Part shown: in pieces, positions 2,200-35,607 of the stretch
Position numbering within the stretch: position 1 is the stretch's first letter
Layout of the letters: each line of letters starts with the position of its first letter
Made by a program: the position numbers and the translations under genes
Assembly (NCBI GenBank): GCA_947313825.1
Contig: CAMZNJ010000037.1
Span: forward strand, 1-39,399
Length of the DNA stretch: 39,399 bases
Direction: 5' to 3'
From: an uncultured Deferribacteraceae bacterium
Lineage (GTDB): Bacteria; Chrysiogenota; Deferribacteres; CAMZNJ01
Notes under the pieces: generated by a model
What the model saw: the letters and a program-made list of their open reading frames with translations, nothing else
Told to the model about the DNA's origin: nothing
Databases searched by the model: none

Positions 2200-3255
2200 A
2201 TGGGAACACTTACAAGAAAAATACAGGTGGGAAACGTGGACGTTGGCGGCGATGCCCCTGTGTCCATTCAGTCCATGACCACCACTAACACCACCGACAC
2301 AGAAGCAACAATCGCACAAATACGAGAATTGGCGAATGCGGGGTGCGAAATAATACGGTGCAGTGTTCCGTGCAAAGATTCGGCAACATCCCTGAAACAC
2401 ATTGTCGATAACGTTGATACCCCCGTTATTGCTGACATACACTTCAGCTACTCCCTCGCAATAGCCGCCATGGAAAACGGTGCTAGTTGCATACGTATTA
2501 ACCCTGGCAACATCGGTGGTGAAAAACGTTTGGAGAGTGTTATTCATGCCGCCAAGGCAAACAACTGCTCCATTCGTATCGGCGTCAATAGTGGGTCCAT
2601 TGAAAAACATGTTTTCGAACAACACGGCATAACACCAACAGCACTAGTCGAGTCCGCACTGAGCACCTTGGCCATATTCGAGCGGAACGGATTCTACAAC
2701 ACAAAACTCTCCCTGAAAGCCTCCCACGTTCCCACAATGGTCGAAAGTTATCGCATATTCGCAAGTCGATCAGACTACCCCCTGCACCTTGGTGTAACCG
2801 AAGCGGGGCTACCCTTTGAAGGGACAGTCAAATCGGCTGTGGGTATTGGTGCTCTTCTGTTGGATGGTATCGGCAACACAATCCGCGTATCACTTACCAC
2901 CGATCCACTGGAAGAGATTGTTGTTGCCAAAGAGATACTGCACGCCTCAGGAGTACGCAGTAGCGGTGTGGAAATAATTGCCTGCCCCACATGTGCACGT
3001 GTGGAGATAGATCTGTTTACGCTGGCTCAGCAGGTGAAAGAACTAACCGTCGGGTTACCCGCGGGCATAAAGATTGCGGTTATGGGGTGCATTGTGAATG
3101 GTCCCGGTGAGGCTCGTGAGGCGGATTACGGCATTGCTGGCGGTCGAGGTTCCGGTATTTTGTTCAAGAAGGGTGTGATTTTACGCAAGGTTTCTGAGGG
3201 GGAGCTACTAGGCAGCTTGGAAGTTATGCTACGTGAGGACGGTCTTCTTAAATAG
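2200..3255 (+). CDS. ispG: 4-hydroxy-3-methylbut-2-en-1-yl diphosphate synthase (IspG/GcpE)
   Basis: IspG is the penultimate enzyme of the non-mevalonate (MEP) isoprenoid pathway. It reductively converts methylerythritol cyclodiphosphate to HMBPP with a [4Fe-4S] cluster. The 351-residue protein has the TIM-barrel start (VSIQSMTTTNTTDT, about 22-35), the IRINPGNIG segment (about 98-106), and the cluster ligands Cys262 and Cys265 (CPTC), Cys297 (MGCIVNGPGE) and Glu304. Length and motifs match the two-domain bacterial form. AAGGA lies about 8 bp before the ATG. It follows the Xer gene by 15 bp. Its stop codon is embedded in the first copy of the downstream repeat array. Confidence 0.97.
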   Translation: MGTLTRKIQVGNVDVGGDAPVSIQSMTTTNTTDTEATIAQIRELANAGCEIIRCSVPCKDSATSLKHIVDNVDTPVIADIHFSYSLAIAAMENGASCIRINPGNIGGEKRLESVIHAAKANNCSIRIGVNSGSIEKHVFEQHGITPTALVESALSTLAIFERNGFYNTKLSLKASHVPTMVESYRIFASRSDYPLHLGVTEAGLPFEGTVKSAVGIGALLLDGIGNTIRVSLTTDPLEEIVVAKEILHASGVRSSGVEIIACPTCARVEIDLFTLAQQVKELTVGLPAGIKIAVMGCIVNGPGEAREADYGIAGGRGSGILFKKGVILRKVSEGELLGSLEVMLREDGLLK

Positions 3256-3452
3256 TCGGACGCGAATAAATCGAATAGGGCGAATAAATCGAACAGGGCG
3301 AATAGTCGGACGCGAATAAATCGAATAGGGCGAATAGTCGGACGCGAATAAATCGAACAGGGCGAATAAATCGAACAGGGCGAATAAATCGAATAGGGCG
3401 AATAAATCGAATAGGGCGAATAGTCGGGACGCGAATAAATCGAACAGTGCGG
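3253..3452. repeat. Mixed 18-bp/14-bp tandem array downstream of ispG
   Basis: The array is built from an 18-bp unit (CGAATAAATCGAA(T/C)AGGG) interspersed with a 14-bp unit (CGAATAGTCGGACG). It starts at the ispG stop codon, which lies in sequence matching the 14-bp unit (AATAGTCGGACG), and ends about 25 bp before the aroE start. The unit sizes are not multiples of three, as expected of a non-coding array. No promoter or terminator is evident inside it. Confidence 0.9.
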
Positions 3453-9685: not shown

Positions 9686-11080
9686 ATGGGAACTGAATAC
9701 GGGCAGGAAATAAATACAGCCAAGCCAATACTAGCGAGAACGGAATCCGAAGACTCTATCCTGCGAAACTACTACTCAAAAACATACGCTCAGGACAAAA
9801 AAGTAGGGCTTCTCGTATTCAGGATAGGAGACGGTGTTTTTGCCATCGCAAGCCTGAAAACACAAGAAATAATACGCTCTGTGGATATCACAAGAGTTCC
9901 ACATCTTGAAAAATATATTCTGGGTATCACAAACTTGAGGGGGAAAATACTACCCATTTGCGACCTCAGACACTTCTTCGGACTAAAAAATACCATCTTC
10001 GACAGAGACACAAGGGTGATTATTGCCAAATTTAACCAAGGCTCAATCGGATTTGTAGTGGATGAAGTGGTGGATACAATTCACGTTGCTGTGTCTTCTT
10101 TGGAAAAAAATAACTCAACGGTGTCCTCGTTACAATTCGACGGGTTCATCTCAGGTATCTGCAACCATCAAGATGGTATCATATTCCTACTGAATATTCT
10201 GAAAGTTGCTGGCATTGAGTCTGCACTAGGGGAAAGCGATCCCCTTGATGACTTCTTGAATATGTTGGGGGACGACAAAAAAGGTGGTAAGGGGTTGAAA
10301 CGCTCAGGCATCACCGATGCGAGCACCACCGATGCGAGCACCACCGACGCGAGCACAAGCACAGGCATCACCGATGCGAGCACAAGCACAGGTGCCGACG
10401 ACGCGAGTGCCACCGACGCCGATGAAATGGGCATTGACGAAATGATTGCCATGGAGCTTGCTTTGCGTGAGAAGGCTATGGCGGAGCGATACCATGGCAC
10501 CGATGCGAGCACAGGCACAGGTGCCACCGACGCGAGCACAGGCACAGGTGCCACCGACGCGAGTGCCACCGACGCGAGTGCCACCGACGCTAGTGCCACT
10601 GACGCGAGCACCACCGACGCTAGTGCCGACGACGCGAGCACAAGCACAGGTGCCGACGACGCGAGCACCACCGACGCTAGTGCCACTGACGCGAGCACCA
10701 CCGACGCGAGTGCCACCGACGCAAGCACCACCGACGCGAGCACAGGCGCAGGTGCCACCGACGCGAGCACCACCGACGCAAGCACCGACGACGCAAACGC
10801 GGGTTCCGATGCAATGACCAGTGGCGAAGCCCTTTCGAAGCTATTTTCGACCTTGAACAATGAGTATGCTACCTATTTGGGCAAATCGCGGGGGGCGGAT
10901 TCTTCCACCGGTGTTGCGGAGCCTAGGGTTAATTTCAAGGAGCTTGTGGCTGTTTTTGGTATGTTGGGTTCTGGGGATATGGTTGTTGATGAGTACCCGC
11001 AGAAGTTTTATGGTGTCAATAATATTCCTCAGGATATGGGTGCATTGATCCAAATGGAGACGCGTTCGCGTTCGCGTTAG
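9686..11080 (+). CDS. CheW-domain protein with long DAST-repeat linker
   Basis: The first ~190 residues form a CheW domain: LLVFRIGDGVFAIASLKTQEI, then LGITNLRGKILPICDLRHFFGL and a second half ending FLLNILKV. CheW domains couple chemoreceptors to CheA. The rest of the 464-residue product is a long Asp/Ala/Ser/Thr-repeat linker in two blocks around a short helix (EMIAMELALREKAMAERY). It ends in a non-repetitive C-terminal segment (about 375-464) that I do not recognise. Typical CheW is about 160 residues. The start at ATG 9686 is chosen for AAGGAG 5 bp upstream. A GTG at 9626 would overlap the preceding gene. The gene ends convergently 16 bp from coaE. Confidence 0.85.
   Translation: MGTEYGQEINTAKPILARTESEDSILRNYYSKTYAQDKKVGLLVFRIGDGVFAIASLKTQEIIRSVDITRVPHLEKYILGITNLRGKILPICDLRHFFGLKNTIFDRDTRVIIAKFNQGSIGFVVDEVVDTIHVAVSSLEKNNSTVSSLQFDGFISGICNHQDGIIFLLNILKVAGIESALGESDPLDDFLNMLGDDKKGGKGLKRSGITDASTTDASTTDASTSTGITDASTSTGADDASATDADEMGIDEMIAMELALREKAMAERYHGTDASTGTGATDASTGTGATDASATDASATDASATDASTTDASADDASTSTGADDASTTDASATDASTTDASATDASTTDASTGAGATDASTTDASTDDANAGSDAMTSGEALSKLFSTLNNEYATYLGKSRGADSSTGVAEPRVNFKELVAVFGMLGSGDMVVDEYPQKFYGVNNIPQDMGALIQMETRSRSR
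10316..10800 (+). repeat. DAST-type tandem repeat in the cheW-like gene
   Basis: Two blocks (about 10316-10420 and 10502-10800) of units encoding DASTT, DASAT, DASTST and DASTGTGAT. All units are multiples of three bases. They are separated by a unique stretch encoding an acidic/helical segment. Synonymous changes (GAC/GAT, GCG/GCT, AGC/AGT) and block shuffling indicate repeated duplication. Confidence 0.95.
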
Positions 11081-18585: not shown

Positions 18586-18920
18586 GGTGTGTGCACACAC
18601 GCTCACGCACACACACGCTCACGCACACACACGCTCACGCACACGCACACACGCTCGCACGCACACGCTCATACGCTCACGCTCACACGCACACGCACTC
18701 ACACGCTCACCACGCTCACACACGCACTCACGCACACGCTCACACGCACACACACGCACTCACGCACACGCACATACGCTCATACGCTCACACGCACACT
18801 CACGCACACGCTCATACGCACACGCTCACACGCTCACACGCACACACGCACACACACGCACTCACGCACACGCTCACACGCACTCACACGCTCACCACGC
18901 ACACCACGCACGCACACACG
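18586..18920. repeat. CACACG/CGCTCA repeat array between pseG and galE
   Basis: About 335 bp consist almost only of CACACG, CGCACA, CGCTCA and occasional CATACG and CACCACG words, filling the whole gap between two convergent genes. Long tracts alternate pyrimidine and purine. The plus-strand transcript would be C-rich, G-poor and unstructured. All three plus frames stay largely open and would encode Thr/His/Ala/Arg low-complexity peptides. There is no ribosome binding site or conserved segment, so I treat this as non-coding. Confidence 0.9.
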
Positions 18921-18921
18921 C

Positions 18922-26956: not shown

Positions 26957-29146
<2,190 letters not shown>

Positions 29147-31643: not shown

Positions 31644-31650
31644 GTGGCGG

Positions 31651-31745
31651 GAGCGTCGGTGCGTGGAGGCGTGTGCTGAGTTGTGCAGGAGCGTCGGTGC
31701 GTGGAGGCGTGTGCTGAGTTGTGCAGGAGCGTCGGTGCGTTTAGG
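31651..31745. repeat. 38-bp tandem repeat downstream of DUF4336 gene
   Basis: A 38-bp unit starting GAGCGTCGGTGCGTGGAGGC is present at 31651, 31689 and 31727 (about 2.5 copies). The copies look identical by eye. It starts 7 bp after the DUF4336 stop codon. Confidence 0.95.
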
Positions 31746-31755
31746 CGTGTTCGGG

Positions 31756-31888
31756 CGTACCAACCTCGCCAAGGCGTACCAACCTCGCGAAGCCGTGCCA
31801 ACCTCGCTAAGTCGTGCCAACCTCGCTAAGTCGTACCAACCTCGCTAAGTCGTGCCAACCTCGCTAAGCCGTACCAACCTCGCTAGCC
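31756..31888. repeat. 19-bp tandem repeat ending in the DUF1015-like gene's stop
   Basis: Seven copies of a 19-bp unit, CGT(A/G)CCAACCTCGCTAAG(T/C), lie head to tail. In the last copy the sequence CTAG at 31883-31886 supplies the stop codon (complement TAG) of the minus-strand gene. Plus-strand RNA would be rich in pyrimidine-C dinucleotides. The unit is unrelated to the adjoining 38-bp array. Confidence 0.95.
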
Positions 31889-33759: not shown

Positions 33760-35607
33760 ATGTTTGCGACACTTGGGAAAAGGCTTTCTAACGCCTTTTC
33801 TACCATAGGAAGTGCTCAGAGGTTGTCCGAAGACACCCTGCATCAAGCTGTAAGTGAAGTTCGAAAAGCTTTGCTCGAAGCTGATGTTAATTACAATGTT
33901 GTAAAAGCACTCACACAAAATATTGAGGAACGCATTAACGCTGCATTGACTGTGTCGCCGGCGGTATCGTCGACAGACGCATTACCCCGTAGCGATGTTG
34001 ATGGCTCCCTAGCATCCTCACCTCTCAGTGGCGTCGGTGGCGTTGCAACATCATCCCAATTAGGTCAGCTGTCCTCCAAGATTACCCTGCACCCAAAAAG
34101 TAGCGGTGCCTCCAAAAACTTACTCCCCCTCCCGTCGTCTTCCTCCCTCGAAGAACAATTTATCGCAGTTTTCCGTGAAGAGCTCCTGAAACTACTCAGT
34201 GGTGGTGCTGGTGCTCATGGTGGTGCTGGTGCTCATGGTGCTAGGGATGACGCACCACTCTCACGCTCAGGCTCAGGCTCCACGGCGAGCATTGTTGTGC
34301 CCCCTGCAGGCTCTGACCCAACAACAATACTCCTCTTAGGGCTCCAAGGTAGTGGTAAAACCACCGCGGCAGGGAAGATAGCACACATATTATCAACACC
34401 ATCCCTGCTAAATAACAGCAACTCAGCACCAATCGAAGCAAAGGACGTCCTCCTTGTGGGGTGCGATACCCATCGCCCTGCAGCACGGGAACAGTTGCGA
34501 ATACTGTCCGAACGCGTTGGGGCAGGCTTCTTCACGCTCCCATCCCCTGAAGAAAGTGGAGAGCAGAGCAACCACCATAACCAAGAATACCTATCCACTG
34601 GCATAGCCTTGGCGGGCTTGGAACACGCCAAAGACAACGGCTACAGGGTTGTTGTTCTCGACACCGCAGGACGCACACATGCCGACAAAGAACTAATGGA
34701 CGAGCTTGATCATATGGTCAAAACCTTGCCACAACTAGACTACCACGTCCTCGTTGCTGATGCCATGCTTGGGCAACGTGGAGTCGAAGTTGCAACAGTG
34801 TTTAACGATTCCGTTGGCGTTTCAGGGGTAGTGCTATCCAAGTCCGACAGTGATGCCAAAGGTGGTATTGCACTGTCGATTAATTATGTTACCGGTGTGC
34901 CCATATTCTACATAAGCGATGGTGAGCGGATTGAAGACATCTCTGTTTTCCATGCAGAACGCCTTGTAGACAGGCTCCTAGGGCGTGGCGACCTCCTTAG
35001 CTTGGCGGATAAAGTTCAGAGCGTCCAAGGTGCTCCCGATGAAAAAGATGCCCAACGTATTATGCGTAGCGGTATGAACTTCAATGACCTATTGACACAA
35101 ATGAAAACCATGCGTAAGATGGGTGGTGTGGCTTCCATGATGAAGCTACTGCCGGGGATGGGAGGCGGTAGTATGGGCGAAGCTGCCAAGATGGCTAGCT
35201 CTCCCGAAGCAAAAAAACGACTGAAAACCACCGAAGCCATTATTCAGTCCATGACACCCGAAGAACGACAAGATTACAAGATCCTCAATGGATCGCGAAG
35301 AAGACGCATTGCCAAAGGTTCTGGTGTCAAGGTGTCCGAAATTAATCGCCTTGTAGAACAGCTTCTCGCCATGAACAAAATGATGAAAACCATGTCGCCC
35401 GCTGTTGCCGGACTATCCAAACGTGGCAAAGGCAAACCCATGGGCAAGAAAAAAGGTCGTCGACAGAAAAATAACCACACAAGACCCAACAACATGCAGG
35501 AGTTAGGCGGACTAACACTACCCAAAAATCTGAATAACCTAAACCTGAACGACCTAAATTTGAACGATTTAAATTTGAACGACTTAAATAAATTTATAAA
35601 ACCGTAA
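33760..35607 (+). CDS. ffh: Signal recognition particle protein Ffh with large insertions
   Basis: Ffh is the SRP54 GTPase that binds signal sequences with SRP RNA and docks with FtsY. The N domain starts at MFATLGKRLSNAF and resumes at EEQFIAVFREELLKLL (131-146) after an insertion of about 65 residues. A second insertion (about 148-186), including a Gly-Ala-His repeat, precedes G1 GLQGSGKTT (194-202). CDTHRPAA, DTAGR (301-305) and a G4 motif reading SKSD (360-363; usually TKxD) follow. The methionine-rich M domain is at about 430-560 and the C-terminus is an LNLND repeat. The product is 615 residues against about 450. No strong ribosome binding site is seen. Confidence 0.93.
   Translation: MFATLGKRLSNAFSTIGSAQRLSEDTLHQAVSEVRKALLEADVNYNVVKALTQNIEERINAALTVSPAVSSTDALPRSDVDGSLASSPLSGVGGVATSSQLGQLSSKITLHPKSSGASKNLLPLPSSSSLEEQFIAVFREELLKLLSGGAGAHGGAGAHGARDDAPLSRSGSGSTASIVVPPAGSDPTTILLLGLQGSGKTTAAGKIAHILSTPSLLNNSNSAPIEAKDVLLVGCDTHRPAAREQLRILSERVGAGFFTLPSPEESGEQSNHHNQEYLSTGIALAGLEHAKDNGYRVVVLDTAGRTHADKELMDELDHMVKTLPQLDYHVLVADAMLGQRGVEVATVFNDSVGVSGVVLSKSDSDAKGGIALSINYVTGVPIFYISDGERIEDISVFHAERLVDRLLGRGDLLSLADKVQSVQGAPDEKDAQRIMRSGMNFNDLLTQMKTMRKMGGVASMMKLLPGMGGGSMGEAAKMASSPEAKKRLKTTEAIIQSMTPEERQDYKILNGSRRRRIAKGSGVKVSEINRLVEQLLAMNKMMKTMSPAVAGLSKRGKGKPMGKKKGRRQKNNHTRPNNMQELGGLTLPKNLNNLNLNDLNLNDLNLNDLNKFIKP
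34201..34242 (+). repeat. Gly-Ala-His codon repeat in ffh
   Basis: An 18-bp unit of GGT-GCT-GGT-GCT-CAT-GGT type occurs about 2.3 times between the N and G domains of Ffh. Codon usage and word content resemble the Gly-rich array ahead of sfsA at the start of the window. Confidence 0.9.
35539..35592 (+). repeat. LNLND codon repeat at the ffh 3' end
   Basis: Three copies of a 15-bp unit encode Leu-Asn-Leu-Asn-Asp (35539, 35554, 35569), followed by a partial copy, forming the last residues of Ffh before the stop. Confidence 0.9.

Follow-up and report, generated by a model that had tools for sequence, protein, structure and literature searches.

Proteins of Plasmodium falciparum carry in-frame low-complexity inserts, which lie within conserved proteins, occur genome-wide and show fast turnover in length, and the Rickettsia palindromic elements are insertions in the reading frames of conserved genes that consist of copies of related mobile elements. 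The protein considered here is a bacterial Ffh (SRP54), for which two described C-terminal regions serve as points of reference. In Escherichia coli the C terminus of Ffh enters the ribosomal tunnel, and N-domain loops lie on uL29 and uL23 (PMC4737761). The chloroplast protein cpSRP54 has a C-terminal tail, with a basic stretch beyond the M domain, which binds cpSRP43 and the ribosome and contains an ARRKR motif (PMC11427828).

The ffh gene described here lies in a 39,399-nucleotide stretch of DNA, analysed as a whole and referred to below as the window, from a reduced-genome lineage of Deferribacterota known from the guts of vent shrimps; the window genome measures 1.26 Mb in 66 contigs and is 86% complete. 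Its sister species is Candidatus Rimicarispirillum atlantis (genome G001), a midgut symbiont of Rimicaris exoculata (PMC9636832) and the only congener among the genomes searched; the window itself probably comes from another species of that genus, possibly Ca. R. nautilei. The open reading frame at 33760-35607 (+) encodes 615 aa, starting with MFATLGKRLSNAF, and has Pfam matches above cut-off to SRP54_N, the SRP54 GTPase and SRP_SPB, with the N, G and M domains in order. Its best PDB matches are 7o5b and 2xxa, with Ffh structures reaching E 2e-72. Downstream of ffh, rpsP, rimM and trmD are also found in the sister genome, and rimM and trmD in the free-living relative G005, in a comparison that used an ORF cut-off below which the shortest genes fall. 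The SRP-type GTPases found in the window genome are one Ffh, one FtsY and one FlhF, the last (contig C49) with an open frame of 583 aa in which NGNG, APAS and DSADSA repeat tracts precede the GTPase domain. A second canonical ffh, which the sequence-only reading of this DNA had named as possible evidence against its own proposal, was not found in the 86% complete assembly, and a scan of viral contigs for more Ffh homologues returned none. The protein is very probably the cell's only Ffh and a working one. We consider it likely that this single Ffh, probably functional, has grown in its surface loops by accretion of low-complexity and repeat sequence, one outcome of a process acting across the genome, and that its LNLND tail is now under selection.

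Other features of the window may be recorded here. TrmD carries a fused SAM-dependent RNA methyltransferase domain (PF09936; 36793-38076), an arrangement that was set aside as an oddity since relatives have full-length matches of similar size, which makes it ordinary for the class. The NAD-dependent DNA ligase gene (26996-29146) holds a 12-bp repeat array at 27243-27278, N-terminal of the adenylation domain match. Dense tandem arrays, some longer than 300 bp, lie in and between ORFs at 1174-1399, 3251-3423, 10305-10794, 18593-18921 and 31650-31885. The features of ffh itself are as follows.

33760..35607, +, ffh, 615 aa, upstream of rpsP, a KH-domain gene, rimM and trmD
33949..34143, +, N-domain insertion, residues ~64-128, Ser-rich, alpha3-alpha4, net +60 over residues 58-133
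34195..34240, +, 18-bp tandem array encoding the GGAGAH repeat (GAGAHGGAGAHG), N-G linker
34204..34320, +, N-G linker (residues 149-187), gain +24 to +27 net, dN/dS near 1 and differences in length
34396..34443, +, moderately conserved insertion in the G domain, residues 213-228, +12
34540..34602, +, G-domain insertion, residues ~261-281, +13
34837..34848, +, G4 motif SKSD (TKxD in relatives), then SDAKGG for GDARGG, from the 19-relative comparison
35158..35217, +, insertion in a loop of the M domain, about +8
35410..35493, +, C-terminal tail, basic portion (residues 551-578, with KRGKGKPMGKKKGRRQKNNH)
35494..35604, +, LNLND tail, residues 579-615, with a 15-bp tandem repeat at 35526-35589

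Segment lengths were measured against 19 full-length relatives from the class, in which they are nearly constant (full length 447-451 aa), and the enlargement that had been noticed from the sequence alone amounts to about 165 residues. The largest gain falls in the alpha3-alpha4 loop of the N domain, where residues 58-133 span 75 positions as against 15 in 19/19 relatives and 65 in the sister; the insertion first seen, put at about 65 residues, is present, and its net size is +60. The N-G linker (residues 148-188) spans 40, compared with 13-16 in relatives and 32 in the sister, so that the gain of about 40 residues once claimed before G1 corresponds to the whole linker and the true gain is +24 to +27, while the Gly-Ala-His repeat reported there is indeed a tandem array and has the unit GVAGAR/T at the same site in the sister. 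Extra residues in the G domain, also part of the first description, are found at 212-229 (span 17; 5 in 19/19 relatives; +12), at 262-282 (span 20; 7 in 19/19; +13) and within 318-412 (+1). The M domain gains about 8 at residues 465-486 (21, mostly 13 in relatives), and from residue 545 to the end there are 70 residues where relatives mostly have 20-23, a gain of about 48 that includes the LNLND tail, itself confirmed as a tandem array.

The sequence-only reading had linked these insertions to the N-G interface that controls FtsY docking, and this part of it is not supported, as the large N-domain insertion falls within the alpha3-alpha4 loop and ALLEADV is intact. From the topology of the helical bundle, the insertion would sit at the ribosome-contacting end, remote from the G domain. 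An AF2 model, run on two sequences and of low confidence (mean pLDDT 38.6), has no secondary-structure element at this insertion. Tandem Repeats Finder detected no tandem repeat in the window copy of the insert, which counts against our preferred explanation; an origin from repeats is suggested here by the abundance of Ser and by an echo, DGSxSSP, in the sister sequence.

Every insertion is found at the same site in the sister Ffh, with the N-domain insert 10 residues shorter and the linker 8 shorter, and none was seen in the other relatives and families inspected within the class, which points to an origin on the stem of the genus or family. The insertions thus appear to be genus-level traits; the objection that they might be an old lineage trait is borne out to the extent that the sister species has them all, but not for any other inspected family of the class. 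The agreement between genomes also bears on whether the insertions are an artefact of assembly or binning in repeat-rich sequence. The sister genome was assembled from a metagenome, the window genome is in many contigs and short reads can mis-size repeats, but two separate assemblies agree on all insertion sites and on the tail, in frame and with synonymous differences, and we find such an artefact scarcely credible.

The enlargement of Ffh is best explained, on the present comparisons, as one instance of genome-wide in-frame repeat accretion. Tandem Repeats Finder was applied to genome samples of 606, 252, 400 and 400 kb, with ORFs defined by a simple longest-frame rule, and gave 53.3 arrays per 100 kb in the window genome and 48.3 in the sister, as against 7.2 in G005 (GC 0.352) and 4.8 in the GC-matched relative G004 (GC 0.488), so that the density in the window genome is 7-11 times that of relatives. 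GC content was rejected as the cause of this density because G004, at 48.8% GC, has so few arrays. Periods divisible by 3 account for 184/210 arrays (88%) inside ORFs of the window genome but only 38/93 (41%) between genes, and the sister shows the same pattern (60/71 inside, 14/46 or 30% between). Insertions of at least 8 aa occur in 35/71 window-genome orthologues, compared with 9/71 in the opposite direction. Counted over reciprocal best hits, there are 63 such insertions in 71 window-genome proteins versus 12 in G005, and 57 versus 13 in the comparison with G004, whereas the control pair G004/G005 is symmetric (12 versus 15). The inserted residues are rich in P, A, G, T, N, H and D and poor in K, F and R, and 32 of the 36 coding arrays shared with the sister are altered in length. 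With about half of the compared orthologues enlarged, and with FtsY, FlhF and the Ffh linker all rich in repeats, the growth of Ffh is part of a general process and the initial framing of it as peculiar to this protein is not supported.

Several causes and consequences of this process were considered and rejected. MutS and MutL genes are present above cut-off in both species, their matched stretches free of stop codons, and RecJ, PolA and SbcD genes were also found, so loss of repair genes is not accepted as the cause of slippage; mismatch-repair-deficient repeat instability in particular would call for a loss of mutS or mutL that is seen in neither species. SbcD was found in the genus (C46:39393-40319; G001:C34:22453-23586) and in 0/7 other genomes of the class that were searched, and its match is broken near profile position 73 in both species, as if insertion-bearing. 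Compensation in the ribosomal docking partners was likewise discarded, as uL29 and uL23 are not enlarged; uL29 scores below its relatives.

Selection on the segments of Ffh was measured by the Nei-Gojobori method on a codon alignment of the window species and its sister, and the selection and turnover comparisons therefore rest on two species. In the core stretches of N and G, dN/dS is at most 0.05 and the alignment is free of gaps; for the M domain the value is 0.105. These values speak strongly against the idea that Ffh is drifting to loss of function in a decaying symbiont whose SRP is failing or dispensable. Such decay would fit a reduced genome, the many changed residues that are normally invariant and an FtsY without GTAKGG, but the catalytic residues, the SRP RNA and both partners are retained and the frame is open in two species, which makes it highly improbable. 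The N-G linker (dN/dS 0.97, 8 gap columns) evolves neutrally and not as a tuned element. For the N-domain insert, pN is 0.21 with 12 gap columns, the ratio of 0.13 being unreliable with dS near saturation. Most of the inserts make best sense as flexible loops that the protein tolerates, and the insert at residues 213-228, which changes little between the species, may also have a function.

The LNLND tail behaves differently from the other arrays. Over its 37 codons there are 0 nonsynonymous changes and 11 synonymously changed codons (dN 0, dS 0.69), and it is the only one of the 36 shared coding arrays without a gap and without an amino-acid change (Fisher p about 6e-6 against the other arrays, Nei-Gojobori differences 0:13). 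LNLND was found in no other ORF of the sampled genomes. The tail is under purifying selection, and since its synonymous sites vary freely it is the protein that is constrained, and not a DNA or RNA signal.

Changes are also seen in positions outside the insertions. The G4 motif is TK[LTM]D in 19/19 relatives and, as first reported, SKSD in the window Ffh, which keeps K and D; this is a conservative change, fixed in both species. The composite GTPase site is otherwise kept (D236, R239 of DxxR, Q245, DTAGR at 301-305, K361 and D363), with S for the first T of G4. The SRP RNA of the window genome scores 49.3 bits with RF00169, over the cut-off, retains its GGAA tetraloop and is identical to that of the sister over 97/97 nt. 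Changes in ftsY, asked about at the outset, are found too: FtsY (C65:19990-21108) reads TKADAHLQPGS where relatives have TKLDGTAKGG, the GTAKGG being lost in both species, and its N-G linker is a (TAT)n repeat in the window genome and (TNT)n, in more copies, in the sister. Of columns invariant in relatives, 49/156 are changed in Ffh (an approximate count, which includes columns in or near inserts and several relatives for which a late start was chosen) and 37/110 in FtsY, where leave-one-out maxima in relatives are 11% and 22%, respectively. About one third of invariant columns changed fits a long branch with relaxed constraint, and co-evolution at the interface is possible.

An adaptive rewiring of the SRP-receptor cycle would make more of these changes, with the N-domain and linker inserts, SKSD/SDAKGG, the FtsY linker repeat and the replacement of GTAKGG by AHLQPG having co-evolved for a new docking and GTPase rate. 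Both partners have diverged at otherwise invariant positions and the changes are fixed in both species, which speaks for it. The diverged columns, however, are spread over both proteins and not confined to the interface, the linker is neutral and has indels, enlargement to the same degree is seen in many proteins of unrelated kinds, and relaxed selection along a long branch would yield the same count, so that we regard rewiring as unlikely. Altered SRP kinetics specific to Ffh, the original proposal, are possible but not the best explanation.

Under repeat accretion, slippage or local duplication would add units everywhere, as suggested indirectly by the array density inside and between genes and by the species differences in units and copies. 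Selection removes arrays that break the frame, as the excess of periods divisible by 3 inside ORFs shows, and, to judge from the unchanged lengths of core segments, would also remove insertions that hit structured cores. Most Ffh inserts would then project as flexible loops, that of the N domain on the ribosome side of the bundle and that of the linker between the N and G domains, as placed from domain topology. The LNLND tail would have been built by the 15-bp repeat and later held by purifying selection, and it is probably a segment of repeat origin that now acts at the ribosome exit or the membrane. Given the tunnel location reported for the E. coli C terminus, an added contact is the most likely role for the tail; the basic part would most likely contact rRNA, and the LNLND part the nascent chain, a ribosomal protein or, on handover, the translocon or membrane. 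A broader suggestion, which we offer tentatively and rate at a little under even chances, is of a bacterial lineage in which in-frame tandem repeats, multiplying in a genome-wide burst, provide the material from which new parts of proteins arise, the 15-bp ffh repeat having become a strictly selected C-terminal SRP element while other arrays (FtsY, the Ffh linker) are still turning over.

As Ffh segment lengths are near-fixed in the class, a working version with seven gains maps the insertion-tolerant sites of the SRP GTPase. The two related species also allow the accretion of repeats in conserved proteins to be followed; intergenic arrays give a neutral standard for this, and one of the repeats is under selection. 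A literature search of open-access papers for a bacterial precedent of repeat accretion returned nothing close, and in the two papers on shrimp-gut symbionts of this kind a text search for protein repeats had no hits.

The window Ffh shares with bacterial Ffh/SRP54 the three domains, the G1-G3 motifs and the RNA-binding motif of the M domain, with SRP RNA and FtsY present, and differs in about 165 extra residues in seven places, in SKSD and SDAKGG, and in the long basic and LNLND tail. Like cpSRP54 it has a lineage-specific basic extension after the M domain, a parallel and not a sign of membership, as the tail sequence has an LNLND repeat and lacks the ARRKR cpSRP43-binding motif, and SRP RNA is retained in the genome. 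Frame insertions in conserved genes of a host-associated bacterium recall the Rickettsia palindromic elements, but insertion of that kind was rejected on reading the inserts, which differ from gene to gene, each with its own unit and many in tandem. Plasmodium falciparum offers a likeness in its genome-wide in-frame low-complexity inserts with fast length turnover, whereas here the genome is that of a bacterium of ~46% GC, the units are longer, mostly 9-18 bp, and the inserts are rich in Pro, Ala, Gly, Thr and Asn.
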